The notes beneath the pieces were generated by a model, which worked only from the letters and a program-made list of their open reading frames with translations, made no database searches and was not told the DNA's origin. 64,000 nucleotides of DNA from contig NC_134030.1 in the NCBI RefSeq assembly GCF_964204645.1, positions 907,855 to 971,854 of the forward strand. The letters run 5' to 3'. The stretch's first letter is position 1. Every line of letters starts with the position of its first letter. The stretch comes from Tubulanus polymorphus. Lineage: Eukaryota; Nemertea; Palaeonemertea; Tubulaniformes; Tubulanidae. Shown here piece after piece: positions 1,817-55,800 of this stretch. Both the position numbers and the translations under genes were made by a program.

Positions 1817-4800
1817 GCTGATGGTATTATTATTATAATTCAGTCAGTCCAGAGGCTGAGAGCAATTTTATGAATTAAGTTTCACAGTTCTGGACTCAGT
1901 TTCACAGTTCTTTGAGTTAACCCTTTCAGTGCGGTGTATAAATCGGTGATGGATTTTGCTAGTACACCGCACTGCGATGTATTGATGTAATTAGTAATTA
2001 TCTCTATTGAAAGAGTATATATAGTGAATAGTGAAATACTAGTAACTAACGATACACCGCGCCGCGGTGTAGACGCACTATAGCGCTATTCCCGTTGTTC
2101 AACACACTAGGGTGGAATTTTTAAAAATTTTCAAATCACCTCCAGCACCATAGGGTATTTATTAATCAGCACTGAAAGGATTAAAATATCAGTATAATTT
2201 TACTGAGAAATTTGTCGCGTTTGTGGTGAAAAGCCTTACAAAATTCCAGTTTGATAAAACTGAGAACCTTGTGTGTAACATGTAAAGCCTCACAATACTC
2301 CCGATATCTAACAACAGAATCATTTAATAACGTTGCTAGTCGTAAAACTACTCCGACGATATTTAAAACTCTGTTAACCGTATAAAGTTTCTCGCCGTAA
2401 TTTCATGTCTTTCGTTTCGTTTTTTCCGTAGCAACATCGGAAGAAATTCCGCACGCCGAACACGCGGAGTAACGTGATCGGCGATCGACTGTGTAATCAT
2501 AGCGTTCTTTATAAATCATGTGAGGACGTTGTGTTAGTCATGCATAATAACAAAGGTAAGTCCTACGATAAGTTATTTGATAAGTCTCTGAAATGGTAGC
2601 GAGCGGATGATATTAATACGCGATATGGATGAGAAGTGCATGCGATGAAACGGGCGCTGTATCGCGGTGTTTTTTAGTTCCTAGCAGCGGTGCTAGGTGG
2701 CGCTCGTACGCATGAACGGTTTAAAAGTGCATGAGATTCAGTCCCCTTGAACCGATCAGCATGAGCGGTCCAGTTTTATAGAAAATAAGTTTAACTTTAA
2801 GCTAAAACTGTTTCGTGAAACTGGACCTGGGCCCAGTTTCACAAAAAAGTTTAAGCCTAAAACGGTTAAGTTTGAATTGTTGTCCTCATTGAAAACATGA
2901 AGTAACCAATGAAAAATTACACCAAAAATTTGAGTTTAACTCTTTTGTGAAACTGGGCCCAGTGCCCGGTACCGCAGTTGTGAGTTAGAATGAGTTTTAT
3001 CTCTCAGTAACTGTGGAATCGGGTCCTGGTTGTCAATTAATTCATTGAACCTATAGAAACAAGATGAAAAACTTCCGAAAAAAAGATGTTGATTTGCATG
3101 AAATGTTGCTTTAGGCAAATATTAATTGTTGTAAAAGTAAATTATCACTTTGCCCCCTCCCCCAGACAGCCCCCCCCCCCGATGCCGGTTTATGAGAGAG
3201 GGTTATGAGACGTAGTATTTATAATATCTATTGTCTAGTAACAGCAGAATTAGACGGAGCTGGTTCATCATTTACCGGATCAACAACCGACCGCGACGAT
3301 CAACGATTAATTTCATCTGAAGATTATTGTGAGTGAGACGTTCGATCAAAATCTGTCTACAATATATCTCTACAATATAATATCTACAATAGCGGCACAC
3401 AGTGGATCAGATCAAAATATGAGAGAGATAGAGACTTATCTGTATGAGGGAGAGGTATCTCTGAGCTATCAATAAATTCCATACAGACTCAGTTTCTGAG
3501 ACACCAACAATCTCAATCTAAACAATTATTCCTGTTTCGTACGTTTCATGTGGAATCCTTCCACCCATCTTCACAGCTTATTTGAATAAACTGGTGGAAC
3601 ACACGTGGAAGGATTCCACGTGGAACTTTGAGAAATAAACAGCGACAGTTGTTAAGATTGAGATTGTGCATTTCTCTAAATGATAGGTATCTGATACCTT
3701 TGATACTACATGTATCTGATACTTTTGATATAACATGTATCTGTATATCACTCTACAAACAGCTCTCATATTTTGTATCAGTTTCACACAGCTACTAATC
3801 AGCACTGCTTATACCTGTCAGGGGGGTTTAAGGGGGAGGTGTTCCGTTTCTCTGGGGAGGGAGGGAGGGAGGGAGGGAGGGAGGGAGGGAGGGAGGGAGG
3901 GAGGGAGGGAGGGAGGGAGGGAGGGAGGGAGGGAGGGAGGGAGGGAGGGAGGGAGGGAGGGAGGGAGGGAGGGAGGTAGGGAGGGTTAGGGTGGGGACAA
4001 GGAGGTAGACAGTGTCCCGCCCTGGTATGTAATTACTGCTAACAGTAAGCTGCTGAGAGCTGTGGTAACCACTCAGGTAGAGATTCAGCAGGTGTTCTCT
4101 TAATCCCCCCTCCCTCTCCACTCTCCACTCCCCTCTCCACTCCCCTCCACTCTGCTGCATGTGTGGTCTGTATTGTTAATAGTTCTGTCAGTCGGATGCC
4201 ATTGTTTGAAATATATGTTAGTTAACCGTTTAGTGCTCGCAATGATTTTAACTAATTTCTAATCAACACAAACTAATGATTAATAATCTCATACTGAAAT
4301 TATGATTGAATACAATAGATTCCGCTCAAGTCAGACCTTTTGGGACGGTAAAAATGTGTCATTATTCTCTGAGGGTGACAGTATCCTAGTTACCTATAGC
4401 CTAGGTGATTGTATCCTAAGCGACTGTATCCTAGGTAACGGTATCCTAGGTGACATTTTATATTCCGATTGTTGAATGTATGTTGGTTTTTGATTTCAGC
4501 GTTGAAAGGGTTAGCCAGCGGTGTCGGAGGTCACGGGTCGAACAGGGTTCACTGCGCTAATGGTGACCTGGATGAAGCGAGTCAGATGACTCAATTTACC
4601 GATGACGTGATAGACTCAGAGGCAACAACGCCCAAACATCACGGGCACGGGCACGGGCATAGTCATGGTGAAGTACCTACTACAATATCAGCAGTAGCGT
4701 GGATGGTTATATTAGGAGATGGTTTACACAATTTCAGCGATGGTTTAGCTATAGGTTTGTATTCTATATTTCTATTGCTTTTCAATGAGGACAACAATTA

Positions 4801-7464
4801 CAACTTAAATGATTTTAAAATCTGCCCATCTGTCTGTCCTTCTGTCTGTCAGACTTTCCATCTGTCTGTTTGTCTATCTGTCTGTTTGTCTATCTGTCTG
4901 TTTGTCTATCTGTCTGTCTGTCCATCTGTCTGTCTGTCTATCTGTCCGTAGTGACAGTTCTAGCACCAGACCAGTATAATACTGTCTGTCTGGCTGTCTG
5001 CCTGTGTGTCTGTGGTGCCCCAAAATATCTCCTTTATTTTCAAACATCAGTTTATTTATATTCTACACCCTGATGTTTTATGAATGAATGAATGAATGTT
5101 TAAGTCATTCAACTTATAAACACCTATAGCATATGATTTGAATACAGTCAGTGATCAGTTCACTCAAGTGTCAATAATACACTTGGGCCCACCCACTACA
5201 TACAGGTCACCTGACCTAGTATAAGGGTTTTGATTGGCTGTGATGTCATTGCTTGCTGGACCTTGGGTTATGAATATGTATAAACCCACTGGTCACCTGA
5301 CCTAGGGTTAGGGTTAGTAGTGGTGACTGGTGTCCAGGTCACATGACCTAGGGTTAGGGTTTGATTGGCTGTGTGATGTTGTGATGTCACCGTGAGATGT
5401 CAGCTGACCTAGGGTTAGGGTTTGATTGGCTGTGTGATGTTGTGAGGTGTCAGCTCATAGCTGTGAAACAAAAGTTGTCTGCAATTATAGATTTCTGTAA
5501 ATCGTTGAGCAAATGAAACTGGTAAACATTGGGTGAAACTGTAGAGTATATATTTAGATTGCTGATGAGGAGTTTGTATATATGTTTTCTGTAGATTGTA
5601 GTTAAATGGAAGTTCAATCAGGGAATCCATGCACATAGAATCCTTACCAAACTTCTGTAGATTGTAGTTAAATGGAGGTTCAATCAAGGAATCCATACAC
5701 AGAGAATCCTTACCAAACTTAACTAAACTCACATTTATTGCGCTAGCGGTGCCTCATATACCCTCCATATATTCTAAAATGCTTTACTCTCACACCTATT
5801 GATAAGTCTTCATATTCTATTATTCATACTCTTAATATTTGTTTATTTTGTTTCTGTGGGCTTATTATGTGCATATTTCTTCTGTGGATAGCTTTTTTTT
5901 GATACATTATAATACCTGATGAGACTGAAGTGCTCTTTGACTCTGGCGAAATCAACAGTGCTGTACAAGTTGTAGAAATATATTATTTTCAGGGATGAAT
6001 TTTGTTATATTGATGGCTTGAATGAAAGGATTTATTTGTTTTTTGTTTTAATAGGAGCAGCGTTTGCTAACGGTATTACCGGTGGACTCAGTACGTCTAT
6101 AGCAGTATTCTGTCATGAGCTTCCACACGAATTAGGTTCGTATACATCCCCTCCTCGCCTCCTCGCAACCCCCTGAGTTCACACGGGCTGCTGTTGTCCG
6201 TCTAGAAAACTACCTGACGTTGATAAAATACTCTTAACCGCTGTCAAAAGTTACTGCTATGTTAAAAGAACTACTTCATATTGCGAAGTAGAATTTTCAC
6301 ATTATCTAATCATACAGCGGATAAAGCACTTAATTATTTTCTGTTCAGCCACTCAAACTGAAACCTGTAATTCTCATGCGCGGACTATGTTATATATAAT
6401 TTCAGGTGATTTCGCTGTTTTATTGAACGCCGGAATGTCCGTAAAACAAGCTCTCGTTTATAACATTGTGTCTTCCGTATTGTGTTTCATCGGTATGATA
6501 ATAGGTGTCTCCATCGGTAACATCAGCACCGCTAGTTTGTGGATATTCGCGCTGGCTGGTGGAATGTTTTTATACATCGCGCTCGTTGATATGGTAAGCA
6601 CGATTACTGATGCTTCGAGTATTAGTTATCATTTCTAAAATATCCCATAACTTACCGGATAATAATGATAGAATAGAAAAGTTAGTTCAGCAGTTCTAGG
6701 TTATAATACATGTTTGTAACTACCGCACCAATGGAATGAACTACAGTACAAGTTCTTTATAAAACCAGCGCTGTTTGGACAAGTTTAAACAATGGTATTC
6801 TCCATTGAATTTGATTGGGGGTAAACCTGTTGTCTGAAATATGTCTACATTAAGAGTGAGGGGTGGCATTAAAAAGGATGTTATAATGAACTTTGACTGT
6901 AATTCTACCTTTAAAAGACAAACATAACTTATAACTGATTAGGACTCTCTCTCTCTCTCTTTCTCCTGTCCTCCTTTCTCTCCCATATCCTCTCTTTAAT
7001 CCTTCCTCTTCCCCTTCCTCTCTCATCTCTCTTCTTCCCCTCTCTTCTCGCCTCTCTCCCATATCCTCTCTAATCCTTCCTCATCCCCTTCCTCTCTCCC
7101 CTCTCTCCTCGCCTCTTTCTACTATCCTCTCTATCCCCCTTCCTCTCCTTTCCTCTAATCCTCTCCCTTTCTCCCTCTCTCCTCTCTCTCATAACTAATG
7201 AGTAGGATTCAGTTCCATAATTGAACTTTGAATAAATTTGAACTGTCACAGCGCTGTTAGTCTACAGGTTTTATACGGTAACTTTAACCATGTGTGTTTG
7301 TTTATTACTATTTACAGCTTCCAGAAATGGCTGCGGCGAGTGAGCACGAACAGCACGCGGTGGCGTTTCTCGTTTTACAGAATTTCGGAATATTTATAGG
7401 AGTAGGAATTATGTTATTGATAGCGATCTACGAAGACGATATTCGAGTGAATTTTGAATTATGA
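385..7464 (+). CDS. SLC39A6/10-like: LIV-1 subfamily zinc transporter, ZIP6/ZIP10-like, copy 1 (3' part; 5' exons before the window)
   Basis: Exons by splice signal and phase: 385-554, 1547-1750, 2432-2555, 3248-3328, 4500-4754, 6055-6135, 6406-6593, 7318-7464 (TGA). They join in one frame to give 415 residues. The family moves Zn2+ (and other divalent metals) into the cytosol. Exon 1 holds two membrane helices ending in [10 protein letters not shown]; exon 2 is a His/Asp-rich loop ([18 protein letters not shown]) plus the next helix; exon 5 has an [10 protein letters not shown] cluster and the helix with [10 protein letters not shown]; exon 6 has the signature CHELPHELG, whose His and Glu residues bind metal; exon 7 continues [11 protein letters not shown]; exon 8 is the last helix, ending IRVNFEL. 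The signal peptide and long ectodomain must lie upstream. Compared with copy 2 it has an extra exon (3248-3328) and an extra intron (4755-6054). Family assignment is firm; orthology to ZIP6 versus ZIP10 is not resolved. Confidence 0.92.
569..1395. repeat. 30-bp minisatellite in the first visible intron of zinc transporter copy 1
   Basis: About 28 head-to-tail copies of a 30-bp unit (core ACCTCCAAAATATAACTGTG) start 14 bases after the splice donor at 555. A variant pair (ACCATTACC, then AAATGTGGAGCACCAT) recurs at regular intervals, giving a higher-order pattern. Because 30 is a multiple of three, several frames are open throughout. On the minus strand one frame reads [10 protein letters not shown] repeatedly (see findings). 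Confidence 0.95.
1754..1816. repeat. (ATT)n microsatellite directly after a splice donor
   Basis: About 20 ATT triplets begin four bases into the intron whose donor is at 1751. Confidence 0.95.
1918..2184. mobile_element. piggyBac-like MITE, copy A (TTAA-flanked, TACACCGC palindromes)
   Basis: The element starts TTAACCCTTTCAGTGC and ends GCACTGAAAGGATTAA, so it has inverted termini beginning CC and TTAA on both sides, as in piggyBac-type transposons. Inside are palindromic motifs such as ACACCGCGCCGCGGTGT. There is no coding capacity. It lies in an intron of zinc transporter copy 1. Confidence 0.7.
2768..2963. mobile_element. Two adjacent short inverted-repeat elements (GGGCCCAGTTTCAC type)
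   Basis: A 60-bp hairpin (GGTCCAGTTT to GAAACTGGACC, 2768-2827) is followed by a 135-bp element whose ends are TGGGCCCAGTTTCACAAAA and TTTTGTGAAACTGGGCCCA. Both look like non-autonomous DNA elements without coding capacity. Looser relatives are at 31012-31182 and 49655-49756. Confidence 0.55.
3248..3328 (+). CDS. Extra exon of zinc transporter copy 1, absent from copy 2
   Basis: The exon lies between AACAGCAG and GTGAGT and reads [14 protein letters not shown] then [13 protein letters not shown] in the phase required by both neighbours (phase 1 in, phase 1 out). It lengthens the cytosolic loop between helices 3 and 4 by 27 residues. In copy 2 the flanking exons join directly. The sequence is low in repeats and has balanced codon use. 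No homology is recognised. Confidence 0.7.
3853..3977. repeat. (GGGA)n microsatellite, about 30 units
   Basis: A nearly perfect run of GGGA tetranucleotides, purine-rich on the plus strand, lies in an intron of zinc transporter copy 1. Confidence 0.95.
4829..4955. repeat. (TCTG/TCTA)n imperfect tetranucleotide repeat
   Basis: The run mixes CTGT and CTAT tetranucleotides inside the intron (4755-6054) that is present only in copy 1. Confidence 0.9.
5196..5455. repeat. Repeats with GGTCACATGACC and TTTGATTGGCTGTG
   Basis: Three or four imperfect copies of a 60-100 bp unit contain GACCTAGGGTTAGGGTTTG and ATTGGCTGTGATGT. A related block is at 27365-27545, so this is a dispersed repeat and not only a local one. 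Confidence 0.75.
6949..7195. repeat. CT-rich low-complexity tract in the last intron of zinc transporter copy 1
   Basis: Nearly pure pyrimidine with TCTCTC and CCTTCCTC motifs, about 120 bases before the final exon. Confidence 0.85.
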
Positions 7465-8127
7465 TAGTTTCAACTACGACTTCAACCAGGATCAAAACTA
7501 TTCTCACATAAAAAAGAACAAATAATTATAATCATGATCACTGAATTTTTAAAAATGTATGAGTTTTTTTTATTTTGGCCACAAAATTCAATTTGGACGT
7601 GGTTAACTGGTTAACTCCTGGTTAACTTTGTGAAGTGGTTAACTCTTAGGTGTGGTTAATTGGGTCAGTGCGTGATTAATTCAGGTGGTTAACTGGTCAA
7701 TGCGTGTTTAACACTTGAGGTGGTGTGAACTCCTGTCTTATAATGTGGCCTTTATATCCTTACATATTCATACATTTACTGAACTACAAAAACAATGTAT
7801 AAAAACAACAGTAGATATATATTTTATATACGATATAACATTATCCTCATCAATCAATACTTAGATCAATACTCCACCTGACATGTGTTACATGTACCTG
7901 TAACATGTACATTCTTGTGTATATGTATCTCTATATAATATCTCTCCTGAAGCAAGTAAGGAAGTTGTTGGTTGTGATATTAGCATTTACTGAGATCTAA
8001 CATCATTTAAATCCCGGTTCCTTTTCTATTTTTAAGTTATTTCTCGTTCGATTCGAGTTTTATTTGTAATTAACTGATTTTTCGGCTGGTGTCGAATTAA
8101 TTCCCGCTTGATTTTTTTTTTGTATTA

Positions 8128-8273
8128 CAGGGCCGATCTAAACACTTGTCCGATTGCCCAGGTCAAGTATATTATCGTAAGGGCAAGTAGGTTATTATTA
8201 TCACTTGTCCCCCGGGCTATTGCAATCTAATGTCGCCCGGGCAAGTGGCTCTTATTCCTTAGATCAGACCCTG
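8128..8273. mobile_element. hAT-like MITE
   Basis: The ends CAGGGCCGATCTAA and TTAGATCAGACCCTG are imperfect inverted repeats that start CAGGG, as in many hAT elements. Inside is a palindromic GCCCGGGCAAGTGG region. A clean 8-bp target duplication is not visible, so the superfamily is tentative. Confidence 0.5.
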
Positions 8274-8529
8274 TGTTATGTTCAAAAAGGGTAAAAATAT
8301 TACGTTCAAACTATTAAAGTGATGATTTTCTCATTGACAAGATCCGAATGGCGACTTTCATATATCAGACTGAATTGGAAATACAAATTTGGACTGAAAG
8401 ATTTGAGTCAACTTCAGTAGTCTTATCCAAATGATGACTTTAACAAGTTTGACTATAATAATGGCTTATTAGTTTAATTCCAGGAGATGAAATCTAAATG
8501 CGTGTGTCAAAATTACTCCATAATGCTGA

Positions 8530-8696
8530 GGGATCATTGATTTATTACGTACGCATTAAGGGAGGGGGAGGGGTCAGTGCAATTGTGTACTGTTACACTT
8601 AATTTATATGAAAAAATGGCCGATTTTGCGTACAGAGGGGGTGGGGGGGTTGAAAAATTTGAAATTTTATGCGTACGTAATAAATGAATGATTCCT
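8530..8696. mobile_element. MITE of the GGGATCATT family, copy A
   Basis: The ends are GGGATCATTGATTTATTACG and CGTAATAAATGAATGATTCC, near-perfect inverted repeats with GTACGCA/TGCGTAC inside. The second copy is at 60697-60826 and shares the internal GGGTCAGTGCAATTGTGTAC. There is no coding capacity. Confidence 0.75.
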
Positions 8697-9755
8697 TTGA
8701 TTTGGAGAGGGAGGGGGAAGAAAGGTTGGCAATCGGTATGAATTTAGGCTAAAAAGAAATGATACCTTGTTTCCGCTAATCGGTCGGGTCGTTTTGTAAA
8801 CTGCAATAACATTTGTAATCAGTTCATTTTCTATATCTGCGGGATCTGTTGTTGTTAGCTTGTTGATTAATTATTTAAGTAATGTACAGGATAGATAGGC
8901 GGCCGCGGTCGGGTCAACTTTTAAACTCAGCAGAAACGAGAAACAAGTTATCAATTTTTTTTAGAGTATGTATCTGTATGGCCCCTGAATATTATAGATC
9001 TGAAGCTTCATTTATCTTTTATTCCTTCATTTATGTTTGTGTATAATATGCTGTAGTGGCATTTAAAATCTCAAACCCGATAGATCGTTAAACATTCCTA
9101 GTCCAGGAGTTGCTGCCATCTGGTGGTAAATTATGGAACTACCGAACCCCGTATCTCAAATCAACTATGAAACTATTTAATGAATAATTATTATTCGAAA
9201 CGATATTTGTTTTTTGAGCTTTTGTTTGTTTGTTTGTTTGTTGTTTTTTTTAAATATTTTTTGTACAGAACTGTTTACAACTAAAAACTGAAAACATTGG
9301 CAAGCTGTATAACTGTATAAGGTACATTTAAAACGCTTCCCGGGTCCGTGTAGGATGTTCGCTCAGCTCACACTAAACGTTCCCTGTTGGTTTGAAATAT
9401 TCAAATGTGTTTGAAATATCAAATGATCAAACATATTTTACCGGTACTTATAAAAATATATAGAAATAGATAGAAACTACGGACGTGTTTACACCGAGTG
9501 ATGATGATTATATCAGGATTTATAAAAGTGATTTTCTCAGGAACAATACCACCATCTTTCTTAAGTGTCTTGAGACAGAGCAGTTCAGTAGGGAGCGCTC
9601 TAAAGGGTAGGGGTAGGGTTTGTATCCTATCGGTGTAAACTGTACAAATGATTACCTCAGTCCACCACTTGGTCGTTATCAAACTTTGTCAGTTTCCACT
9701 CTACACAAAAATAATTTTGTGTTTTCAAAATGCGAAATGTCAGTGGATGAAATCC

Positions 9756-17184: not shown

Positions 17185-34277
<17,093 letters not shown>

Positions 34278-41235: not shown

Positions 41236-44200
41236 ATGACAGATGGTAAAATATGGATGAACAAAGGATACGATATATTCAAAGATGTGAAAGGTTTAAA
41301 AGCTTTCGAGGATTTACAGAAAATACAATTCAAAGTAAGCGCAAAACCTTCTTAAGTATAAACGCTCCATTTTTATATTGTTTTACTGTGTAGTAACGTG
41401 TGCAGGCCCTCTTCCATACATGGCTTGGTATTTACGGATTGAAACGTATTCATACGTCACAACAATCCTGCAATCCATGTATGGAGTGTTGACGTACCTA
41501 CACACGTCACAATAACCTAGAAATATCTTTTGCACTCATCGGAGCTCATGGCCGCACTATATTAGTCCTACGTAGACACATACGTCACTTCCAGACTTAT
41601 TCATTTACATTACTTCTATTTATTGTTTATGTATGACGTTCGCATCGCAAAGTTTTCAGGTTTTCATTCTTGTATTTCGTTGTAGAAAGCCGGATGTGGC
41701 GGTGGGTCTGTCGGGTTGTGTTTGGAAACGTTTAAATTTAAAACTATTTTCGGCGTCGCTGCCCATAAACAAGGACTGAGACCGAGCCACCCGACAGGAG
41801 TTGGAGGTCTGGGATTCGCTGAAATTTTAGAGAACGATCAAATTCCAGAAAATGATTTTTTTATACCCGGTAGAAGGTGAGTACATAGACCCTAAAATGT
41901 CCAAAAAACATAATTTTACTTGTTTGGTTAATGGGGGTCGAAATCTTACTCTTGGTCAAAAGACATTCGAACCTAGAGTATTTAACTAAAAGCAACTGCG
42001 GTACTGGGTCCTGAAGCCCTCACTCACCAGCGACTCGAATATGATAGCATCTCTCCTCGTCTAAATACCAGTCGTTGTTAGGGTTCCCTACAACGTCTGA
42101 CGCCAAACTGTCATAAAAAGGTTAACTCCTGTTTATTGCAATGGAACAACTGATTTTAGTGTCAAATCAAACCTTTGTACTCAAATAGATTAAATAGTTA
42201 CTCCCTGTATTTTGGCGATGTCGTCACGTTCCTATCCCTATTGAGCTTGACTCAACCGTAACCGTTGCCGAAATCGCTTCATTCACAGATTGATTTAACA
42301 TAGAACATTTTCATTGAAGCCTCGCTATAGTATTGCCACGTGTAGTTCTGCGTAAGGAATCGCTGTTCTTCCCGAGATATCCTCAACATATGTAGTATTT
42401 TGTCGGTGTTGATACCAAAATGATGTTACCACATCTTTTCAAGAGACACAGTGAATCAGGTTCGAACCCCGCTAACGCTTTGAATTCTCATAGTTTCACT
42501 AGAAGAATCAGCTCTGCGCGAAATGACCTCAAATTCACGATATATATGAAAAAATTAACAGCACTATTTGCGATCATTAAAACACCCCCGATAAGGTGCG
42601 TCAAATGATTTATTTGAGTTGGTAAATACTTCATTTTGTCAGTCGCATAGCTAAACAAGTTGATTACAGTATTTGGTGCGTTAAACACGAAAAAGGCTAC
42701 GATTATGCAAATTAGATTGCGTACGCATCTTCGTTGCTGTTCGGAAATGTTCGTCTTCGTGAACTGGACATCTCGTCTGACAAACTGAATAGCGATAAGA
42801 ACTGTAGAAAATATAAAACCAATCCAAGGAATTATTGTCATCATTGAGAAATTATAAATTGCAAGTATTTGCTCAATAATTCTTGAAAAGGTTTTCAACT
42901 GGCAGTTTTTTAAGCCATGCCCAATTGTTCTAATGTGGAAAGTAACACCCAAAGCAGCTTCCGTTACGGCGTAGTATAGAAAAATTGACGAAACAAGATT
43001 CCGGCGTCGAGCCCGGGTCACCAGTCTCCCGATGCGCAAAGGAACCAGTACCGCTATACTGCGCTCCACGGCAAAACACAACAGAATCCACGTAGAGATT
43101 TCAATACTGATATTGATGAGCACCATTCCCAGTTTACACGTGACTTCATTAACGGCGTAGAACACGTAGCGGCCATGAGCCTCGGTGCCGGCCACTATAT
43201 GAATTCGTTCCAGACACTTCAACGAAAAAGTGACGACAAAACTCGTATCAGAAAAAGCTAGCGGTATCAGATACTGGAAGGTGCACGCGTCTATCGTACG
43301 ACGCAGACGGAACAAAACGACTACAGACAGTAAACCCCCCGTAACACCGGTCACCATCCAGAAATAGATGTAAATATTAAACGCATACCAAACTGCGTTC
43401 TGCCACGCACCGGAACGTAGAAACGCGTAACTAACCGTAACGGTGTCGTCTGTTGAGTTTGTCATCGGTGACATCATCCTATCTCAATTTGATATTTGTT
43501 AATGGCCATTTGGTATTCATGTATTTACTACACTTTGATCTTAGCCAATAGGCCGAGAAGCCTATTGGCTAAGTTGGTGAAACACTCACACACTGTCAGT
43601 CCATTAAAAGCTCTCAATTCTAAATACTTTTAAAACCAAAGCAAACTAGAATGAGCTGTTAATGCGTATTTAGGACCAAATCGTAAAGTCAGGAATGATT
43701 CGAACGTTAAGATGAATTTACACCAAAGTTATTGATCTATTTCATTTAGAAATACACTGTAGCAAATTTGAAATGTGAAAACTTCAAGCAACAAAATAAA
43801 GATGCGTTAATTTCACCAGTCAACAGAGGCTTGTAATTAATTAACAATTTGCTCAAACGACGCCTAGTGAGATATTCCCAGTACCGGTAGTTGCAATTCA
43901 AATGCAAAATCTTTCTCCCGTGCCCAAATTTAGGTCGGGTCTGGTCCGACTTTTTGGTCGGGCCAAATTTAGCCTATGACCAATGATATACTTATTATCT
44001 ACAAGTATTGTGGTTATTTACAGATTTCGAGTTCGAATTCGTCACGGTAATTTCAACCTCGATGACGACGCTGGTTTAGACGGACGATCAGCATCCATTA
44101 AGTTTATCGATGCGGAAGATGGAGGTCCATTGGATCTGGTAATGAATACCGGTCATATCAATTTCTTCCACAATCTCGTATCGTTCGGCGAATTCACCGA

Positions 44201-47200
44201 ATCGTTCATACTCGATAATATCAACGGATTTAGAGATTGGCTTTTCAAATATCCGATCAAGTAAGTTCTCTTTTTCAAATTCATCCCTGTTTTGAGAACT
44301 TGCTTTGATATATCATTTATAGTTTATCATCTAAACGAGTCCAAATAGCAGGCGAGTCTTGAGAACAGATTTCACAAAAAAAAATATTCAATGAATTTAT
44401 ATTTATAAGTGAGATTACATCGTAATTATCAACTGCAGTAGGAATGCCTATCTCTATCGGATTTCGACCGTCAAGTGCTGCCCCTATATAAATCATTAAC
44501 GGCGAATCTGTGAACTAACTTGTTTTAGAATAAGTTTTTTCCACTCATGAACCTGTTTATATTCATCAAACTATTTCATGTTCCTGTAGCACAGAGGAAA
44601 CCTCAGTCTAGGGACCAGTTAATCAGCAAACAATACGTAGGTCCTCTTTATATTCTAGTATCTACACCGTAATCGAATTGATGAGACGAGCCCCGGATTC
44701 CTATTGTAATATGACGTATTATTGCCACGCAACGGAAATATTCTACGCCAAAGATGGAAAACGGCGATACGCGAGGTTCCGTTTGGTGCCGCGTGATGGC
44801 GTTGCTGACCAAGATTCCGGATTGCCCGATGAGCAGGATCAAAGGGAACTGTGGTAAGTGAGGGATAACGGAAAATACTGAAGTACAAAATATTTGAGTT
44901 GAATTTCGACGAAAAATGAAGTTTTCATTGAAAAAGTTTTTTACTTCATTTTCAACGAAGAGAAATGTTATTTTCGGTGATTTTAATTTCGTCAAGGAAA
45001 AGAGGCAGACGCGAAAATATCGATCTTCCGAAAAACTATCTGCGTCAAGAATTTAAAACGAGGCTCCGTTCCGGTCAGACTGCCAACTATGTCCTACAAA
45101 TACAGCTCCACCTGGTGACGGATACTGACACCCATGAGATATTCAACTCGAGCGTCGCCTGGAATGAGAAGACCCATCCGTGGTTATCGGCAGTAGCCGT
45201 TACTATAACAACCGCCATGGCAGACGACGCCATGGAACGGACGAAAACTAATCTACGTCATCACCCGAAAATGTTGGCCTTTCCGGAAGCGAGAAATCAG
45301 TACGATTACAACTCGCTGGCGCATGCGCGGATAAAAGTCTACCCGGTGTCGCAGGCGGTGAGATTGCGGCGGCTGGCTCCGACAACTGAACCGCAAACTG
45401 AGTATGTAATAGTGGTAAAAACGAGTAATAAAGAGAAGGCGGGAACCGATGGAAGCATCTATATCACTCTTATCGGTAAGATATCATAATCGATCTTTGT
45501 CACTCATTATTTTTGATTACCTAGTTGATCCTGTTTACTCTAGTTATAGTGTCATTCTGCCTATAAATATTGTTAGTGTTTTCTCCATTTACTCATTTAC
45601 CCGATGAAGCTACTACGATGCACTAGCGAAAGTTCGTACTTAGAATAAGTCTCCTTAACCTTCAAAGTATGCCTTAACGTTAAAACTTCCTGGGGCCAGT
45701 TGCACAGTCGCGACTTAAGTCCAAAAGTGTCTTAAATCTTAACACTGGTCTTAAATTGTTGGATTGGCTATAGAACTAAGTTGGTCTTAGACTGGTCTTA
45801 AGTCTAAGCCATGACTATGCAACCGGCCCCCTGTGGCAGTTGCATAGTCATGGCTTAAGACTTAAGACCAGTCTAAGCTCAGTCTTGAGATACTTAAGAC
45901 CACTATTCGACTCGGGAATTAGCGACTGATTCCTGCAGGTATAAAATCAGTTTATCATTTTCTATCTATTTCTGTTAATCAGGCTCGTTGTCCTCGACTC
46001 AACCGATTCTACTCGATCACGAGTTAAAAGATGATTTCCAGCGCGACTCGTTATTGGCCTATGAAGTTTACAGCGTGGACGTCGGAGAGATTCTTGCTAT
46101 AAAGGTTTTTGTACAGTGTTTTTTTTTTATTTCCCTTAATCAGTCGTCAGATTAAATATGAATCATGAATGCTTCATTCTCTCTGATAAGAAATAATTAA
46201 TAAACAAATACAATTTGAAAAATAATTTAAACACGATTTAATCGTAATTTGCTACTAACCTCTATTTTAATCTAATTCAGTAGATTCCGCCTGATAGCGG
46301 TACGTCAGGTCTATTCGCTAAACCGATAGAATAATGGAACTAATTCCTGTCCCCACTGTTTATCAGTGTGAAAAAAAAATCCGAATATTTGCACCAGAAT
46401 TTTTTGTCTGTACCGGCGGTAAAATCGTTATTTTGGTCGAGTCCACTGTGTATTCATTTTAATTGCATTCGGTTCTTCATTTCGAATTAATGATATTTCA
46501 AAACTCAAAAACTCTCAACGAACGTAAGCCTCATACATTGCGATACTATAGGTGCTACCAAAACATGTGTCATCACAGCTCCAGACAGCAGTAGCATTCA
46601 GAGTTGGTCAGGGGCAGTGGTTGACAGTAAATCACGAGTATTCAAAGGTTTTTCTTAGAGTGAATAATTTTTCATATTTTTCTCTGTTTTTCAGATGGAA
46701 TTAAAGACCGGTTTTAAAGATTATGTTTGTTTAGATTATGTTCTAGTGTTTCATACAGAGATGAAATATCACACTGAATTCCCGTGTTATATGTGGTTGA
46801 AAGATGTACTGTATTTACCTAGAGGACATGGTACGTGGATCGACGCACGAGGCGAGCTGAGCCAACTCTCAAAATTATGTTACTCAATTCCATTATAAAA
46901 TGTGAATTAGCTCTGTTGAATTCAGTACCGTAGTTTCTTCTATTGAATAAAATTCCAAATCATAACTGACGATTTATAGCTGCTATTGTTTGAATACATA
47001 GAAAGATCAACTTATCTGTGTCTGACACAACTCATTAGTTGAATTTGACACTACAGTAAAACAGTTAAAGTTAGTTCATTTTCAATTAGTTGCTTTTTAG
47101 AATACAATTTCTAAGCTTCCAACTGGCTGTTTATATTCGCGAAATGGTGGGGGGGGGGACAACTATCCCTTAAAATCGGGTCACAGGTAATAGTTGGTTC

Positions 47201-49896
47201 CAAATCTGATAACTGTTGTTCAATGTTTAAGCAAATTGTGACACATGGTTCGCGGGTTAAAACTTTGAAGAGTGTTAAAAATATGGTTCGTTGTTTTGGG
47301 CAAAACTTGATAACTTTCCGTGTAAATTTTAATTTATTCATTTTCTATCTATCCTTGTTTTTAGCGTCGATATCTGAAGATGAAAATTCGTTTCTGAGAG
47401 AAAATCGAAAAATAGAAATCGCTGAGCGACGATCGAGGTTTGATTGGAGAGAGAGGGATGGATTACCTAGCGGTTTATCAGTGATCGATCAGTTACCCAT
47501 AGAAACCCAGCATCCGCACATCGATACCAGCTGTAACCACGTTAAACCCTTTTCAAACGATATCTCAATCGATACAGAATTGAGATATCAATTCTGTGAG
47601 AATCTCAAAAACGATGTTGAGTTCGGACGCGATTTCGTAAACGGCGGTAACATGTATAACTTGAAGAGATGCAGTAGTATGCCTCCTTGTCTATCGGCAG
47701 TCGATATATCACAAACACTTGATATTCAAATCCAAGATGAAATGAAGGTACAATTACAGAAATTAAAATTACAGAAAATACAATTACAGAAATTACAATT
47801 ACCGAAATTACAATTACATAAAGTTTGACTGGGTTTCTTATAAACAGTAAATACGTAATAACCTATACTAAATGACGACCTAATCATTCTCAATAAACTT
47901 CAACGATTCAGCAAAATTATGATTTGTTACCATAGTTACGACCTTCCGACTCTCCTCAATCAATTCAGTAAAATTATGATTGTTTTCTCTGCTGCGTATA
48001 ATGATCTAAATTGAATAACAGAATCATGTTTATTCGTGAAGAATGAAATGTTTTGTGTAACTATTCTCCGACAGGCTGGCAGAATCTACCTGGCGCAATA
48101 CCCGCAGTTGAGGGCGCTGTTAGAAGGAACCAGTACAGATAAATACGTCTCATCTCCGGTCGCCTTATTCCACGTGACATCCGACAAAACCGTTCTTCCG
48201 ATCGCGATCCGACTTTATCCGGAAAACGGCGAAGATAATCCAATATGGCTGCCGACTGACGATCCCGTTGATTGGTGGAACGCGAAACTCTGGTTGAAAT
48301 GTGCCGACATTCAACAACAGATTCTCGACGTTCATCTGTTCAGATCTCATTTCGTTGTTGAACCTTTCCTTGTCGCCTGTTACCGGAACCTATCGTCTGC
48401 CAATCCCGTTTATAAATTGATTACGTCATACACACGTGGTCTATTGGCGCGTAATCTGATTGGCTGGTCGCAGGCGGAACGGCGACATCCGGGTCCCGTA
48501 TCTTACTTGTCTAATTTAGCGTTCAAATTCGACGCGAACGATTTATTTTTGAAGAAGGTACTGGCTAAAAACGGTTTGGCGGATTCGGACAAGTTGCCGG
48601 ACTATCGACTGAGAGAAGATGGAAGTCGTATGTGGGATACGATCGAGGAATTCGTACAGAATATCGTCAACGCATCGTACACAGACGATCAACAGTTGAT
48701 CGACGATCGGGAGCTTGAGAATTGGATCAACGATGTAAAATTGAACGGATTTCCGAAAGGTTCGATTTCTGAGGTGATTCCAGATAAATTCACAAGTCTT
48801 CAACTATTAGTCGAATGGTTAACGATGATTGTGTTCACGGCTACTTGTGTTCATTGTCGCAGTAAAATCACAAAACAAACCGATTGTGCCGGGTAAGCTT
48901 AACATATACCAGGGACGGCCAGTCAGAGCTTACACTTTAAGACCAGTTTAAGCTCATTTTGGTTCTATAACCAATCTAACAACTTAAGATCAGTCTAACC
49001 TCATTTTTGTTCTATAGCTAACAAATAAAGACCAGTCTAAGACCACCTGGTTTCTAGAGGGCTCAGCCGTGACTTAAATCCAGTAGCCTTGAATCTTATA
49101 AGATTAGTCTTAAGTCGTAGGAGAACGGTCTTAAATGTGAGACATAACTGTGAAGCTGGTTCCTGGCACGGATTTAGGCGGTATTTCCGAGTTCTGGACC
49201 CAGCCTTCAACTGAGGCTACTCCTGACATTTTTACGTTGGTGGCACACGAGTTTTAATTGCATGTGTAATTTCAGCGCTGTTTTGGACTGGTTGCCGTTT
49301 ATGCGTCAGTCTCCTCCCACTGCGAAAGGAACGACAACACCGGAAGACATCTACAATGCGTTACCAATAGCAACCGATAGTTTAGTGAAACGTGTGACTG
49401 AACCGAGCAGCAAACACGAGAAAAAGGTGAATATTAGCTCGAAATCATAAGGTGGTTTGGAAAGACTGGTCCAGTATTTGAGGGTAAAACTTTTGCTAGA
49501 AATATTTTGTGAAAGATTTTTATGTTTCGGCGATACGTTTTGTTTTGCCGCGTGACCATTCTCAAGACCACAGTTTCGGTACAAGTTTGCGTGGGCGATT
49601 TGCGTTGCGAGACCATTTATGATGAAAATCAGTTTCTTTAAGTGAATAAGGTCCTTGGGTCCAGATTCACCAAAAGTTTAAGATTTTGAAAACGTGAAAT
49701 TGCACATAAAGCAACTAAACCAAAGATTTTGGTTTAACCTTGGAATTTGGACCTGACGAAATTGATTATATTTCAGGTGAAATTGGCTCAGTTCCTGCCG
49801 TGTTCATTCACTGACGAATGTTACAAAAAAATCATTCATAAATTACGCGACAATTTGACAGATCTACCCGACTTCAAATGGTCGTATTGTTGTTAG
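41236..49896 (+). CDS. Fusion protein: catalase-like allene oxide synthase domain, PLAT domain and degenerate lipoxygenase domain
   Basis: Exons: 41236-41334, 41686-41876, 44024-44260, 44659-44853, 44997-45475, 45983-46104, 46695-46830, 47365-47747, 48075-48892, 49276-49426, 49777-49896 (TAG). All phases agree; the product has 976 residues. It aligns end to end with the coral allene oxide synthase-lipoxygenase fusion. Residues 1-370 are the catalase-like heme domain: distal His68 in SHPTGVGG, Asn138 in VMNTG, and Arg352/Tyr356 in RIKVY as proximal ligand motif, matching coral His67, Asn137, Arg349/Tyr353. Residues about 375-487 are PLAT, which in the family binds membranes with Ca2+. Residues about 488-976 are lipoxygenase-like (FVNGGN, DNPIWLP, LFRSHFVVEPF, PPTAKG). 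Lipoxygenase iron ligands are lost: the first His is Gln696, the Asn is Lys878, and the C-terminal Ile is Cys976; His701 and His874 remain. The heme half may still process fatty-acid hydroperoxides; the other half is probably inactive. Confidence 0.9.
42488..43477 (-). CDS. Rhodopsin-class (class A) G protein-coupled receptor, intronless, nested in an intron
   Basis: A 329-residue open frame has seven hydrophobic segments in GPCR spacing (about 33-56, 68-86, 111-136, 160-180, 205-230, 253-276, 292-315). Other marks are an N-glycosylation site (NST, 7-9) outside, Cys114 and Cys192 as the likely extracellular disulfide, ERS at 138-140 in the DRY position, NAP at 266-268 in helix 6 where CWxP is usual, and NSAVNFFIY (304-312) replacing NPxxY. 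The divergent motifs resemble invertebrate peptide-receptor-like orphans; the ligand is unknown. Three in-frame Met codons (1, 2, 5) could start it. It lies antisense in intron 2 of the allene oxide synthase-lipoxygenase gene, and the lack of introns suggests a retrogene or a lineage-specific expanded family. Confidence 0.85.
   Translation of the reverse strand: MMSPMTNSTDDTVTVSYAFLRSGAWQNAVWYAFNIYIYFWMVTGVTGGLLSVVVLFRLRRTIDACTFQYLIPLAFSDTSFVVTFSLKCLERIHIVAGTEAHGRYVFYAVNEVTCKLGMVLINISIEISTWILLCFAVERSIAVLVPLRIGRLVTRARRRNLVSSIFLYYAVTEAALGVTFHIRTIGHGLKNCQLKTFSRIIEQILAIYNFSMMTIIPWIGFIFSTVLIAIQFVRRDVQFTKTNISEQQRRCVRNLICIIVAFFVFNAPNTVINLFSYATDKMKYLPTQINHLTHLIGGVLMIANSAVNFFIYIVNLRSFRAELILLVKL
43526..43560 (-). 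pseudogene. U2 snRNA 5'-end fragment (pseudogene)
   Basis: On the minus strand from 43560 the sequence reads CTTCTCGGCCTATTGGCTAA then GATCAAAGTGTAGTA. This matches U2 snRNA from about base 5 through the branch-site recognition sequence GTAGTA, with one substitution and one inserted A. The match stops there, so the rest of U2 is missing. On the plus strand, 43540-43552 and 43561-43573 are exact inverted repeats, so the fragment sits in a hairpin. It lies about 50 bases upstream of the GPCR start. Confidence 0.7.
45690..45831. mobile_element. MITE family M1, copy 5
   Basis: From CTGGGGCCAGTTGCACAGTC to CTATGCAACCGGCCCCC; complete. It lies in an intron of the fusion gene. Confidence 0.8.
45832..45926. 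mobile_element. MITE family M1, partial copy adjacent to copy 5
   Basis: It begins GTGGCAGTTGCATAGTCATG followed by TTAAGACCAGTCTAAGC, so it is in the reverse orientation to copy 5, and decays by about 45926. Confidence 0.6.
48903..49168. mobile_element. Degenerate M1-type MITE pair
   Basis: Two diverged M1 relatives contain TTAAGACCAGTTTAAGC, TCTAACAACTTAAGATCAG and AAGACCAGTCTAAGACCAC. Confidence 0.5.
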
Positions 49897-52816
49897 TGTT
49901 GTCGCTCGGGGCGACGGTCGACCATGGTGGCACACGAGGTCAAGGTCAAATCTCGAATTCAATCTGTTCTATATACGTTACAAAAATAAGGCCTGGTGAA
50001 TTCACGAATATGTACGGGTGCCTCCCCCTAGTGTTGAACAAACATGTTAATTTCTAATGCATTTCCTCATGTGGGTTTAGAATTTAACCAGTGATAAAAT
50101 AGTTTACCTGAAATCTAATACGTCTGACTCATTTTCAAACTTAATATTATCATTTTATCTTGATTCTAAATGCGGAAATGTTTCATCAATCGTCAAAATA
50201 TCTTGAGAATCCGCAAGAAATATTGTTAAACTTTATTCGTGAAGATGACTATTAGGATATCGGCTAAACGTTGGAATAAACTACACTAGCTCAAGGAAAC
50301 CTTTCCAGATTTCATATCATTTTTTTTGTTATTTTTGATCTAGAAATAGGGATTGGTCCTGTCATTTATTTGATTTGTAGATTTCGTTTGATTTGTTGTG
50401 GGATTATCGTCAGCACGGATGATAGTGTTTTATCAATCGGGTTATAATGCTGTATCAGAATTTTGTTATTTGATTCAAAAGATTTCATTTCTCTATTCAT
50501 ATCGTCTGTTAACAGTTTACAAATTCTTATTCTCTTCGGTAATAAAATGTTCTAAGAACTCGTTGAAAAAAAATCATTTGTGTCTCTTTGTATTGTAATA
50601 TTCGTCGTCGTTTGAGTCATCGCTTGCCACAGTCGCAATCCATTTTTTACCGTCGAGTGCTGCCCTCCTGTAAATCAACAGCGGCAAATCTGTGAACTAA
50701 TTCATACCTCGCTAGCCACGGTTAGATACCGATTTTAGATCATAATGTTGACCGTCAAGTGCTGCCAATCATTGGCGGTGAATATGTGAACTAATAGATT
50801 ACTCGCATGCCACAGTAAGACACAGCTAGAGTGTAGGAAATAAATTACTGCCAGGTATCTCAGAATTCAGAGGGTTCTCAGAATCGATCTCCAGGCACTG
50901 TTCTCTCACGATTCTAAGAAAATAAGAATTTCAGCGAGACCTTGACAGAATAATTCTGTCAAGTTCCTGTCGTGTAAATGAAGGACAACTCATGAACAAG
51001 ACCACTGTAATGATTCGCAAAATTTAGAATCAAAAGAAATAAGAAAATTGATGCGACTTTTAAGATTTATCATAATAGATATTCATCATGTTTGCACCAA
51101 CAAATATCAAGGAATGTCTTTCAATGATTTTTTGAGCTGAAATTTCAGGGAGTTTTCAAGATATTTGTCGATATTTCTAATGCGTTGTTGGCTGAAAGCA
51201 CTCTAATCTATATATCTGACTGAGCTTATTTCAAAATCAGATCATTTGAAATAAGTTAATTCTCAAATTGAATATTTTCTCCACGCAACTGCGGAGAGCT
51301 GGATTTTCTCCTATACCCAACAATCATTGAATCGCGATAGGAAGTTTGTAAAAGTCGTTAGTTATTTCCTAGAAACCGATGCGGCCTGTCTTTGTTACGT
51401 CGAATTGTAAAGAATGAACGGAACGCGTTTTGAAAGTTTTTTTTTTCAAATAGTCGAAAAGTAATTCAATTTCTTGGAAAAGTCATTGAGCAAAGTTTCT
51501 TTGATTATTTTCGCGGAAAACCTAACCGACCGTACGACAATCCAACCCTCCCCTACTACACTTCCACAGTTCTCGGTTTAGTGGACCCAGTCCCGCTTTC
51601 CCAGACTCCACTTCCACAGTTCTCGGTTCAGTGGACCCAGTCCCACTGTCCCAGACTCCATTTGCACAGTTCTCGGTTTAGTGGACCCAGTCCCACTTTC
51701 CCAGACTCCACTTCCACAGTTCTCGGTTCAGTGGACCCAGTCCCACTGTCCCAGACTCCATTTCCACAGTTCTCGGTTTAGTGGACCCAGTCCCACTTTC
51801 CCAGACTCCACATCCACAGTTCTCGGGTCAGTGGACCCAGTCCCACTGTCCCGGACTCCACTTCCACAGTTCTCGGTTCAGTGGACCCAGTCCCACTGTC
51901 CCGGACTCCACTTCCACAGTTCGCGGCTCAGTGGACCCAGTCCTACTGTCCCAGACTCCACTTCCACAGTTCTCGGTTCAGTGGACCCAGTCCCACTGTC
52001 CCAGACTCCACTTCCACAGTTCTCGGTTCAGTGGACCCAGTCCCACTGTCCCGGACTCCACTTCCACAGTTCGCGGCTCAGTGGACCCAGTCCCACTGTC
52101 CCGGACTCCACTTCCACAGTTCGCGGTTCAGTGGACCCAGTCCCACTGTCCCAGACTCCACTTCCACAGTTCGCGGTTCAGTGGACCCAGTCCTACTGTC
52201 CCAGACTCCATTTCCACAGTTCTCGGTTCAGTGGACCCAGTCCCACTGTCCCCAGACTCCGCTTCCACAGGAAAATGCCCTTTCTCTTGAAATAGAACTG
52301 TCCATCAAAACAGCTCGGTACGGACCTGATAATTCACTATGCGGCCTGGAATTTATTTAGGAAGAAAAGAAAAGACTCATAAATTGCATGAATGAAATTC
52401 ATTCCAAGAAGTCAATTGCTGTTTCAGTCATAAATTACCGTCATTGAAATCAACTTGGAGTTTTTTTTACGATTGGGAACATTCGTGTTTTGGGCGGCAC
52501 TAACAGCGGTCGGGCTCAGTGTGTACGACGCGTACACACCGCTTAGATCTGTGTTGACTTCATTCTTTCTAACACGGGTCAATAGACAAACCTACCGTCT
52601 CCCTATCTAAACAAGCGAGTTTCTTTTTGCGTGTGTAAAATCGAGTTGATTTCACTTGACGGAATGTTCGAAGCTCGTCAGTATAGTTCGCAGCTGTGGT
52701 CTGTATGTAAGAGTAATGCAGCTCTGTTAACGGCCGGATTAAACAGTGGTCGCGTCATGTTGTTAGTTAAAATAGGTAAATTAAGTACGGTGATTAAAAC
52801 TAAGGCAGGAATTGTA
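49897..52816. other. Region between the fusion gene and CYP20
   Basis: The 3' UTR of the fusion gene starts here, with AATAAA-type signals at about 50276 and 50540. A fragment of the CAACGTTTCGAC element (50215-50310), GTGCTGCC repeats (50620-50820) and the 50-bp minisatellite follow. The CYP20 promoter and 5' UTR should lie in about 52490-52816, where the DNA is free of repeats. I saw no other coding exon. Confidence 0.6.
51555..52272. repeat. 50-bp minisatellite, about 14 copies, upstream of CYP20
   Basis: Units contain CCCAGACTCCACTTCCACAG and TTCAGTGGACCCAGTCCCAC. As 50 is not a multiple of three, one frame cycles through all three phases of the unit; the three long open frames are repeat artefacts. 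Confidence 0.96.
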
Positions 52817-55800
52817 ATGATATCGCCGTGGACGGCTTTACTATTACCAGTAGTACCTATTATGATTGTGGCTACAGTTGCTTATATCAGAAAGGTGAGA
52901 TGTGAATTCGTCTGAGAATGCTTGCATTCAGATCATAACCATTGATGCTTAAACAATCGTTGCTGTAAAGATAATATAAAATCCCTGCACACTAAGAATA
53001 AAAAGAGTTTGAAATGTTTCATTGAGCTAGTGTAGTTTATTCAATGTTTCAACTATATCCTAATAGTCATCTTCAGGAATACTGTATTCCTTGAGCTAGT
53101 GTTGTTTATTCAACGTTTTGACTTTATCCTAATAGTCATCTTCAGGAATACTGTATTCCTTGAGCTAGTGTAGTTTATTCAACGTTTCGACTTTATCCTA
53201 ATAGTCATCTTCAGGAATACTGTATTCCTTGAGCTAGTGTAGTTTATTCAACGTTTTGACTTTATCCTAATAGTCATCTTCAGGAATACTGTATTCCTTG
53301 AGCTAGTGTAGTTTATTCAACGTTTCGACTTTATCCTAATAGTCATCTTCAGGAATACTGTATTCCTTGAGCTAGTGTAGTTTATTCAACGTTTCGACTT
53401 TATCCTAATAGTCATCTTCAGGAATACTGTATTCCTTGAGCTAGTGTAGTTTATTCAACGTTTCGACTTTATCCTAATAGCCATCTTCAGGAATACTGTA
53501 TTCCTTGAGCTAGTGTAGTTTATTCAACGTTTCAACTTTATCCTAATAGTCATCTTCAGGAATACTGTATTCCTTGAGCTAGTGTAGTTTATTCAACGTT
53601 TCGACTTTATCCTAATAGTCATCTTCAGGAATACTGTATTCCTTGAGCTAGTGTAGTTTATTCAACGTTTCTACTTTATCCTAATAGTCATCTTCAGGAA
53701 TACTGTATCCTTGGCCTAGAAGTTTATTCAACGTTTCGACTATATCCTAATAGTCATCTTCAGAAATACTGTATTCCTTGAGCTAGTGTAGTTTATTCAA
53801 CGTTTCGACTTTATCCTAATAGCCATCTTCAGGAATACTGTATTCCTTGAGCTAGTGTAGTTTATTCAACGTTTCGACTTTATCCTAATAGTCATCTTCA
53901 GGAATACTGATGTTGTCCTCATTATAACCTTGATTATTAAAAATCAGAGTCCGTGATTTTATATAATCTCACAACATGGACTCAGGGTGTTTCATCAATG
54001 GTTATAATGAGGACAACATCAGTATTCCTGAAGATGGCTATTGGGATAAATTACTAGTTCATGGAAACATTTCGAAGCTAGTAATTCTACTCAATATCCT
54101 AAATGTCATCTTAAGGAATATATAGTATTTTCCCGACCATTAAGAAGCAGTCAAAACGTAAAACAATAAAATCTCTTTATTCTAGTCAAAGAAACTGAAA
54201 CCATTGACAGGACTTTCGCCGACTCATTCACAAAAAGGAAACATCCCTGAGATAAAAGCGGCCCGAAGTTTCCATGCATTCCTGGCTGATCTGCACGATA
54301 ATTACGGCCCTGTGGCCACGTTCTGGTACGGCAGGCGTAAATGTTGCAGTATCAATTCGCCTGAACATTATCAGCAAATAGAGACTTTATTCGACAGACC
54401 AGGTGCGTGCTACTATCTCCTAGTAATCCTCCCCACCCCTTACACCAGAGCACAGCTGTACTGCACGAAAGTGGTCTGAACTCATAAACTTGATAAAGTT
54501 GTTAGATTCCTTATAGAACAAATATAAGCTTACATGGTCTTAAATTGTTAGATTGGAAATAGAACCAATATGTGCTTAGAGATTGAACTTGATTTGTTAG
54601 ATTTGTTTACTAACATAACTTAGACCGGTCTTTAATTGTTATATTGCCGATAGACCTAAAATGAGCTCAAACTGAATTAAATTTGTTGTATTAGCTATAG
54701 AACTAAAATGGCACCTCAGAATTATACATGCTAATGGAAGAACGAGTGTTGGGCCGGTTTTATAGACTGGTATTTATTCAAACCTTAGGGCTGACTCAAT
54801 TCATTTCCTATTTCCTATAACCCCAAGGGTAAAGTTGATACCAGTCTATAGAATCAACCCCTGGGCAATATTTCAATATTATCAATTATTCTTTTTGAGA
54901 TAATTTCAATTTGTTAAATCTTTCATCGACAGTAACACTGTTCCGGTACAGTGATATTCTATATGGCGAACAGTCGGTTATGTTTACTAACGGAACGGAC
55001 GGTAGGCGGCGCCACAAGTTGTATGCTAATGCGTTTAGCCATCGCGCGGTGGCGCCACTGTACCAAACACTGCAGCAGGTGAGAGATCAGTAAAAAGTTA
55101 TAGCTATCAGTCCAATAATTTTTTAATGAATATATATATATTGATATTATATCAAATTTTTTTTGTTTCATAGTTGGCAGACGATGTCGCTGACGCCTGG
55201 GAGAAACTGCCCCCTGGTGATAAGATTCCCGTCATGGCGACAATGTTCGATTACGTCATACGATGTGTGACGCAATCGATTTTCGGGGACGCCTTTAAAG
55301 ACGAAGCTAAGATTAACAAACTCGTGGAATCCTACGATTACGTAAGTATCTTATATTTCAACATTATTGCACTGTAGAATATCGAGAATTAATCATTTTA
55401 ACCATCTCGCTAGGCTGGGATTCGAACCTGATGGCATCGGGACATATGCAAATTTATGCTAATTCCGTGCGGTAGTAGAGTTTCGATGTTATCAGGTTCG
55501 AGTCCCGGTCTAGGCAAGATGCTGGTTCGAAGGGTTTCGATTTTTTTAAGGTAAGAAACAATATGGAAAAGGTGTCGCTAGGAGGCGGAGATGCGGAGCA
55601 GATGGAGAAAGGTCTGAAAAATTTAAATAATGGAACATTTTAATTGTCACTTATGAAATCATAGGCTCGCAATAGAAACGTTTTACATCAATTCAACATA
55701 GCAAAAATTGATATCAGATATCAGATATTTCTTTTCTTATGTCATCGTTTTTAGTTGCTAAGGAGATTGTTGCTATTTTGGATGATGTAATAAAAATGCG

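Follow-up and report, generated by a model that had tools for sequence, protein, structure and literature searches.

The window, a 64,000-nucleotide stretch of contig C6 in the 268-Mb Tubulanus polymorphus genome, holds on its plus strand a gene at 41236-49896 that encodes a protein of 976 amino acids. Splice borders and phases place its 11 exons at 41236-41334, 41686-41876, 44024-44260, 44659-44853, 44997-45475, 45983-46104, 46695-46830, 47365-47747, 48075-48892, 49276-49426, and 49777-49896. When we rebuilt the model from the sequence, all borders were GT/AG, the phases agreed and no internal stop occurred, and the result was identical, down to the residue numbers, to the 11 in-phase exons and open frame of a preliminary description of this DNA. 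A spliced alignment, made by a purpose-written splice-aware aligner with the coral allene oxide synthase-lipoxygenase (AOS-LOX) protein as query, gave 10 of the 11 exons with the same borders except at its own two ends; it begins within exon 1 and ends within exon 10, leaving exon 11 unreached. Intron 2 of the gene contains a 331-amino-acid open frame on the minus strand (42488-43483) that scores 57.6 bits with 7tm_1, a receptor domain of the rhodopsin family. Elsewhere in the window lie exons of ZIP zinc transporters (PF02535) in two places, 4454-6638 and 31621-32046; three minisatellites, at 20674-22681 (a 47-base unit repeated 42.7 times), 51555-52270 (50 bases, 14.3 times), and 53018-53909 (69 bases, 13.0 times); and a CTG repeat of about 370 bases at 24486-24852 (122.7 copies, 99% match), open in several frames.

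The gene is a real AOS-PLAT-LOX gene, built like the coral AOS-LOX fusion. Exons 1-5 encode a catalase-type AOS (or hydroperoxide lyase) domain (41236..45390, residues 1 to about 372) that phmmer matches to the coral AOS 1u5u at E 7.9e-79. A PLAT domain follows, placed between the heme and LOX domains (45391..46830; PF01477, 52.2 bits against a cut-off of 23, residues 377-477), and exons 8-11 encode a LOX domain with an incomplete metal site (47365..49896; PF00305 and phmmer), whose homology is clear from a PF00305 score of 81.2 bits against a cut-off of 23.6. The best PDB match of the protein is coral AOS-LOX 3dy5 (phmmer, E 1.2e-146). The Pfam catalase model scores 21.2 on it, under the cut-off of 25.

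At least two further full AOS-PLAT-LOX gene models are present in the genome, which the preliminary description had overlooked. We refer to them by contig as C4 (1051 amino acids; G000:C4:26947000-26966800, minus strand, loci L010 and L011 combined) and C5 (1065 amino acids; G000:C5:24164000-24173900, locus L009). Each has 13 exons, an open frame and GT/AG borders, and both are predictions joined by the splice-aware aligner from genomic DNA alone. The genome searches scored the best candidates only, with at least 20 exon matches for LOX and at least eight for the coral AOS. A genome search with the catalase model PF00199 returned the true catalase on contig C1 and did not recover the window, C4 or C5 fusions.

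We scored eight heme-pocket positions of the coral AOS taken from the available text of two papers, namely R64, T66, H67, R102, N137, R349, Y353, and R360 (PMC5617202, PMC5793058). Their window equivalents are R65, S67, H68, R103, N138, R352, Y356, and R363; seven of the eight are identical, and the sole change is Thr66 to Ser. By phmmer and a four-way alignment of the coral, window, C4, and C5 proteins, the distal pair Ser67-His68 (coral Thr66-His67) lies at 41785..41790 and Asn138 (coral Asn137) at 44145..44147, and alignment places the proximal heme ligand motif, Arg352 to Tyr356 (coral Arg349 and Tyr353), at 45328..45342. The window protein thus has the heme domain of a catalase-related AOS-LOX fusion, and its complete-looking heme site suggests that a hydroperoxide-using activity has been kept. 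The product of this half is not predictable, because Phe151 occupies, in the four-way alignment, the position of coral Leu150, which according to the available text is Phe in the Capnella lyase and affects the lyase versus AOS outcome (PMC5617202). The heme half might act as a hydroperoxide lyase, or as some other hydroperoxide-using enzyme, instead of an AOS; we rate this tenable possibility short of even, and it would be compatible with the explanation preferred below. Phe151 speaks for it, as do Gln and Asn in place of coral Lys60 and Lys107, but the same source, in the part available, reports that Leu to Phe by itself left the AOS product profile unchanged, and where the lyase has Tyr-Ser for Asn-Leu as a second feature, the window protein has Thr-Val (PMC5617202).

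The LOX half presents a different picture of its active site. The ligand set described as common to all LOX comprises three His, a residue that is His, Asn or Ser, and a terminal carboxyl, usually of Ile (available text of PMC13059375); in coral AOS-LOX these are H757, H762, H943, N947, and I1066 (available text of PMC5793058). The four-way alignment pairs them with H701, H706, H874, K878, and no residue in the window protein, so three His are kept, the Asn is replaced and the terminal Ile is absent. The stretch His701-LFRS-His706 (48333..48350) lies opposite the HLLRTH or HLLRCH pair in all five HMMER alignments listed for this region (PDB 3vf1, 2fnq, 3fg3, 3fg4, and 3dy5). The preliminary description, which had read Gln696 as the first ligand, had slipped by five residues, and the correct pair is H701/H706, not Q696/H701. 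His701 and His874 do remain, as it stated, with His701 as first ligand and His706 as second; its count of three lost ligands falls to two of the five. Both of those two losses are borne out. By the HMMER and four-way alignments, His874 is kept and Lys878 stands in for the fourth ligand (HCRSK for HAAVN; 48852..48866), a position that would read as Ile if a one-residue insertion were placed earlier and that is Asn, His or Ser in other LOXs. By model and alignment, the last exon (49777..49896) encodes a shortened C-terminus that ends in SYCC, with Cys976 as the last residue. The alignment is also not gap-free around the ligands, as had been claimed, since one residue is inserted shortly past HCRSK and two 10-residue stretches are absent near and at the C-terminus. 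In addition, the conserved GGGG loop keeps just one of its four glycines, a loss that had escaped notice, and the QPH motif has lost its Pro-His.

With two ligands, the Pro-His and three loop glycines gone, it is likely, judging from alignment, that the window LOX half is without oxygenase activity; because all three histidines are kept, weak metal binding may still occur. An AlphaFold model of exon 9 alone, from a two-row alignment, had a mean pLDDT of 42.5, too low to speak to the fold. Three-His non-heme iron enzymes such as cysteine dioxygenase exist, and the LOX half could in principle keep a three-His metal site that, lacking the carboxylate, serves other chemistry or binds a structural metal. 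All three His are indeed kept in a domain that retains 65 of the 132 sites at which coral, C4, and C5 all agree, but at this 49% retention the probability of keeping three His by chance is about 12%. The GGGG loop, moreover, is mostly lost, as is the QPH motif, and the Asn has become Lys. We regard a retained site of this kind as quite improbable.

It is more doubtful still that the missing ligands are an artefact of the gene model, with an unseen splice form that restores the HAAVN region or the tail. The intron that follows exon 9 (alignment column 1000, phase 2) does lie at a position where C4 and C5 have none, which is what such an artefact might produce, but exon 9 continues past the HAAVN position into residues aligned to Q-x-D, and the window gene, C4, and C5 agree in both column and phase of the last intron. 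A displaced canonical tail exon downstream was sought by a pattern search of the window and by tblastn, with nothing convincing found; with three tails as queries and E up to 100, the best tblastn hit between 49401 and the end of the window (14.6 kb) had an E of 0.022 and lay on the opposite strand.

The two sister fusions differ from the window gene in which half appears altered. All five LOX ligands are present in both C4 and C5 in the four-way alignment. In the C4 heme pocket all four Arg are present, as are His67 and Tyr353, with Thr66 changed to Val, which we take to be the catalase-like residue, and Asn137 to Ser. The C5 heme pocket is degenerate: Arg64, Thr66, His67, Asn137, and Arg349 are lost and Arg360 has become Lys, while Arg102 is kept; the proximal Tyr is kept in one alignment and replaced in another. 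We modelled nine further LOX stretches (one at C10:5.57M, and L012, L013, L016, L017, L018, L019, L020, and L021), among which only that at C10:5.57M has all five ligands, so full sets occur in at least three genes of the genome: C4, C5, and C10:5.57M. Six others (L013, L016, L018, L019, L020, and L021) cover fewer than five ligand positions and have standard residues at each position reached. In L012 the third position reads Tyr and the fourth Arg; this fit was probably forced, since the later exons of L012 are located elsewhere.

Comparison with coral reveals crossed evolutionary rates. Counted in the four-way alignment with gapped and X columns excluded, identity to coral in the AOS half is 139/360 for the window, 121/358 for C4, and 94/360 for C5; in the LOX half it is 126/407, 204/448, and 184/447, and in the PLAT domain 32/108, 35/109, and 35/110, respectively. 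The difference between the window and C5, AOS against LOX, has a z of 4.7. With coral as outgroup, relative-rate counts of unique changes in the LOX half were 94 for the window against 35 for C4 (p 2e-7) and 90 against 53 for C5 (p 0.0025), and in the AOS half 30 against 75 for C5 (p 1.3e-5). Rates did not differ significantly between the window and C4 in the AOS half (38 to 55, p 0.10), and they were alike in PLAT (7 to 5 against C4, 13 to 10 against C5). End branches for the window, C4, and C5 measured 0.88, 1.81, and 3.32 in the AOS tree and 1.81, 0.37, and 0.87 in the LOX tree, and neither the AOS nor the LOX trees fix the order of the three genes. Indels confined to one lineage in the LOX half, counted on the protein alignment, numbered 10 in the window, none in C4, and one in C5; that they are in frame follows from the open gene model. 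Thus, the window LOX and the C5 AOS evolve fast. The pattern, which comprises four sequences and has long branches for the C5 AOS and the window LOX, is consistent with constraint having been relaxed on the AOS half of one paralogue and on the LOX half of the other.

A LOX half that evolves fast, carries deletions and has a shortened tail is also what would be expected if the gene were dying, the LOX half being neutral debris and the whole locus on its way to loss. However, the 11 exons are open with GT/AG borders and contain no stop, frameshift or broken splice site, even with ten indels in the LOX half, and the window AOS is closer to coral than the AOS of C4 or C5. Further evidence comes from an incomplete copy of exon 2 with its flanking sequence, on the minus strand elsewhere on the contig (L036, G000:C6:11537014-11537199), 80-90% identical and with the donor GT changed to AT; the remaining parts of the gene were not found in the 29.7 kb around it. 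Mismatches between exon 2 and this copy number 2, 4, and 14 at the first, second, and third codon positions (of 64, 64, and 63; Fisher p 0.0006, third versus rest), and the exon differs less from the copy (171/191 identical) than does the downstream flank (375/464; p 0.006). The third-position bias and the lower divergence of the exon indicate that AOS exon 2 was constrained at the protein level during at least some of the period since this copy arose. We accordingly hold the dying-gene explanation to be improbable. Exon 9 offers no such comparison, as it matched only itself in the genome at the sensitivity of the search. For the opposite half, the C5 AOS keeps 49 of 83 invariant sites.

We favor, with somewhat better than even confidence, the explanation that the fusion was partitioned after duplication, the window gene now encoding a heme enzyme that acts on hydroperoxides supplied by other LOXs and carries a LOX module no longer catalytic. 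The window gene would belong, as a paralogue, to a small group of catalase-AOS/PLAT/LOX fusions whose catalytic halves were split up after duplication via active-site decay. In the window copy the heme site would be retained and the LOX half stripped of its fourth ligand, its terminal Ile, and three GGGG-loop glycines; the protein would act, like an AOS or a hydroperoxide lyase, on fatty acid hydroperoxides made by other LOXs. Candidate sources in trans would include C5, with its own AOS half degenerate, and C4, with its LOX ligands complete, among others. The retained LOX half would be non-catalytic, and we can only guess that it may serve stability, membrane association or pairing. The earlier view of the gene as a pseudo-lipoxygenase fused to an AOS therefore survives in its incomplete metal site, heme positions and open frame, and needs amending for the three kept His. 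Its further suggestion that hydroperoxide comes from elsewhere is supported in principle, because C4, C5, and C10:5.57M have full ligand sets, and supply in trans is plausible. The coral domains reportedly work when separated. Against a strict partition, C4, with only Thr66 to Val and Asn137 to Ser noted in its heme pocket, seems to keep both halves, and the split is therefore not required for the pathway. In a related and rather unlikely alternative, opposite decay would have un-fused the pair reciprocally into a heme-only window protein and a LOX-only C5 protein, and the dead halves would persist in folded form, perhaps enabling the two proteins to associate and pass the hydroperoxide on.

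If partitioning is the right explanation, its interest lies in how fused enzymes are understood, as fusion is often explained by the passing of substrate between the halves. An intact-looking fusion together with heme-only and LOX-only copies in one genome would permit a direct test of handover, for where it matters a split should either carry a cost or be offset by pairing. The genes also place catalase-type AOS-LOX fusions, with both domains shown, in a probable bilaterian. One troponin-like exon of the genome (PF00992, E 6.7e-10, with troponins matched in the PDB as well) suggests a bilaterian, troponin not being known outside that group. The 9.9 kb read of the 15.6-kb contig C77 contained no mitochondrial genes that could be recognised, and a COX1 search gave 0 matches.

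The coral AOS-LOX fusion (PDB 3dy5; Plexaura, Gersemia, and Capnella) shares with the window gene the AOS-PLAT-LOX order and the heme-pocket residues. It differs in length (1066 amino acids against 976), in host and in its LOX half, which has the fourth ligand, the terminal Ile, and the three GGGG-loop glycines that are absent from the window protein. According to the available text of PMC5793058, the AOS-LOX proteins predicted for corals have the LOX ligands, bar one short prediction without its C-terminus, and a clade of them has altered AOS residues. These stony-coral proteins (Orbicella XP_020618715.1, Acropora c002903, and XM_015912608.1) have one half altered and resemble C5; with AOS altered and LOX ligands kept, they are the reverse of the window gene. 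The same text describes ligand replacement, as in the window, in A. millepora c006594 and A. tenuis isotig09255, in which the first His is Lys or Tyr and, in c006594, the Asn is Thr; unlike the window fusion, however, these are listed as LOX and not as AOS-bearing fusions, and as far as that text goes no loss of the C-terminal residues is reported for them (PMC5793058). The Capnella imbricata HPL-LOX has Phe at 150, as in the window, but its LOX half makes 8R-HpETE, unlike the incomplete-site LOX of the window (available text of PMC5617202). Cyanobacterial catalase-LOX fusions (Acaryochloris and Anabaena) likewise join a catalase-related domain to a LOX, although they are bacterial and their LOX is reported active, and the likeness drawn here is one of reported architecture (available text of PMC11719350). 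Within the available portions of the open-access literature, we found no fusion with heme residues kept and LOX ligands lost and, among the matches listed, no clear case of a published pseudo-lipoxygenase or of an AOS-LOX fusion outside cnidarians. Mollusc transcripts named 'allene oxide synthase-lipoxygenase' do occur in the visible parts of annotation tables, by name alone and with the heme half unstated. Changes in the AOS half of corals and single ligand changes in coral LOX are thus already published, and the reverse fusion state was not found in those portions.

Ligand replacement also occurs in another LOX of this genome, the L017 stretch at C6:4.26M (G000:C6:4258500-4268400, exons at about 5239-8748). 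Two of its iron His are replaced, the first by Asn (in SNICFTH) and the third by Tyr (in GYAAAN); the second His and the Asn are kept, the C-terminal residue is Leu, and one donor of the model (after 7834) is GC. From these residues, L017 is likely a second pseudo-lipoxygenase in the genome.
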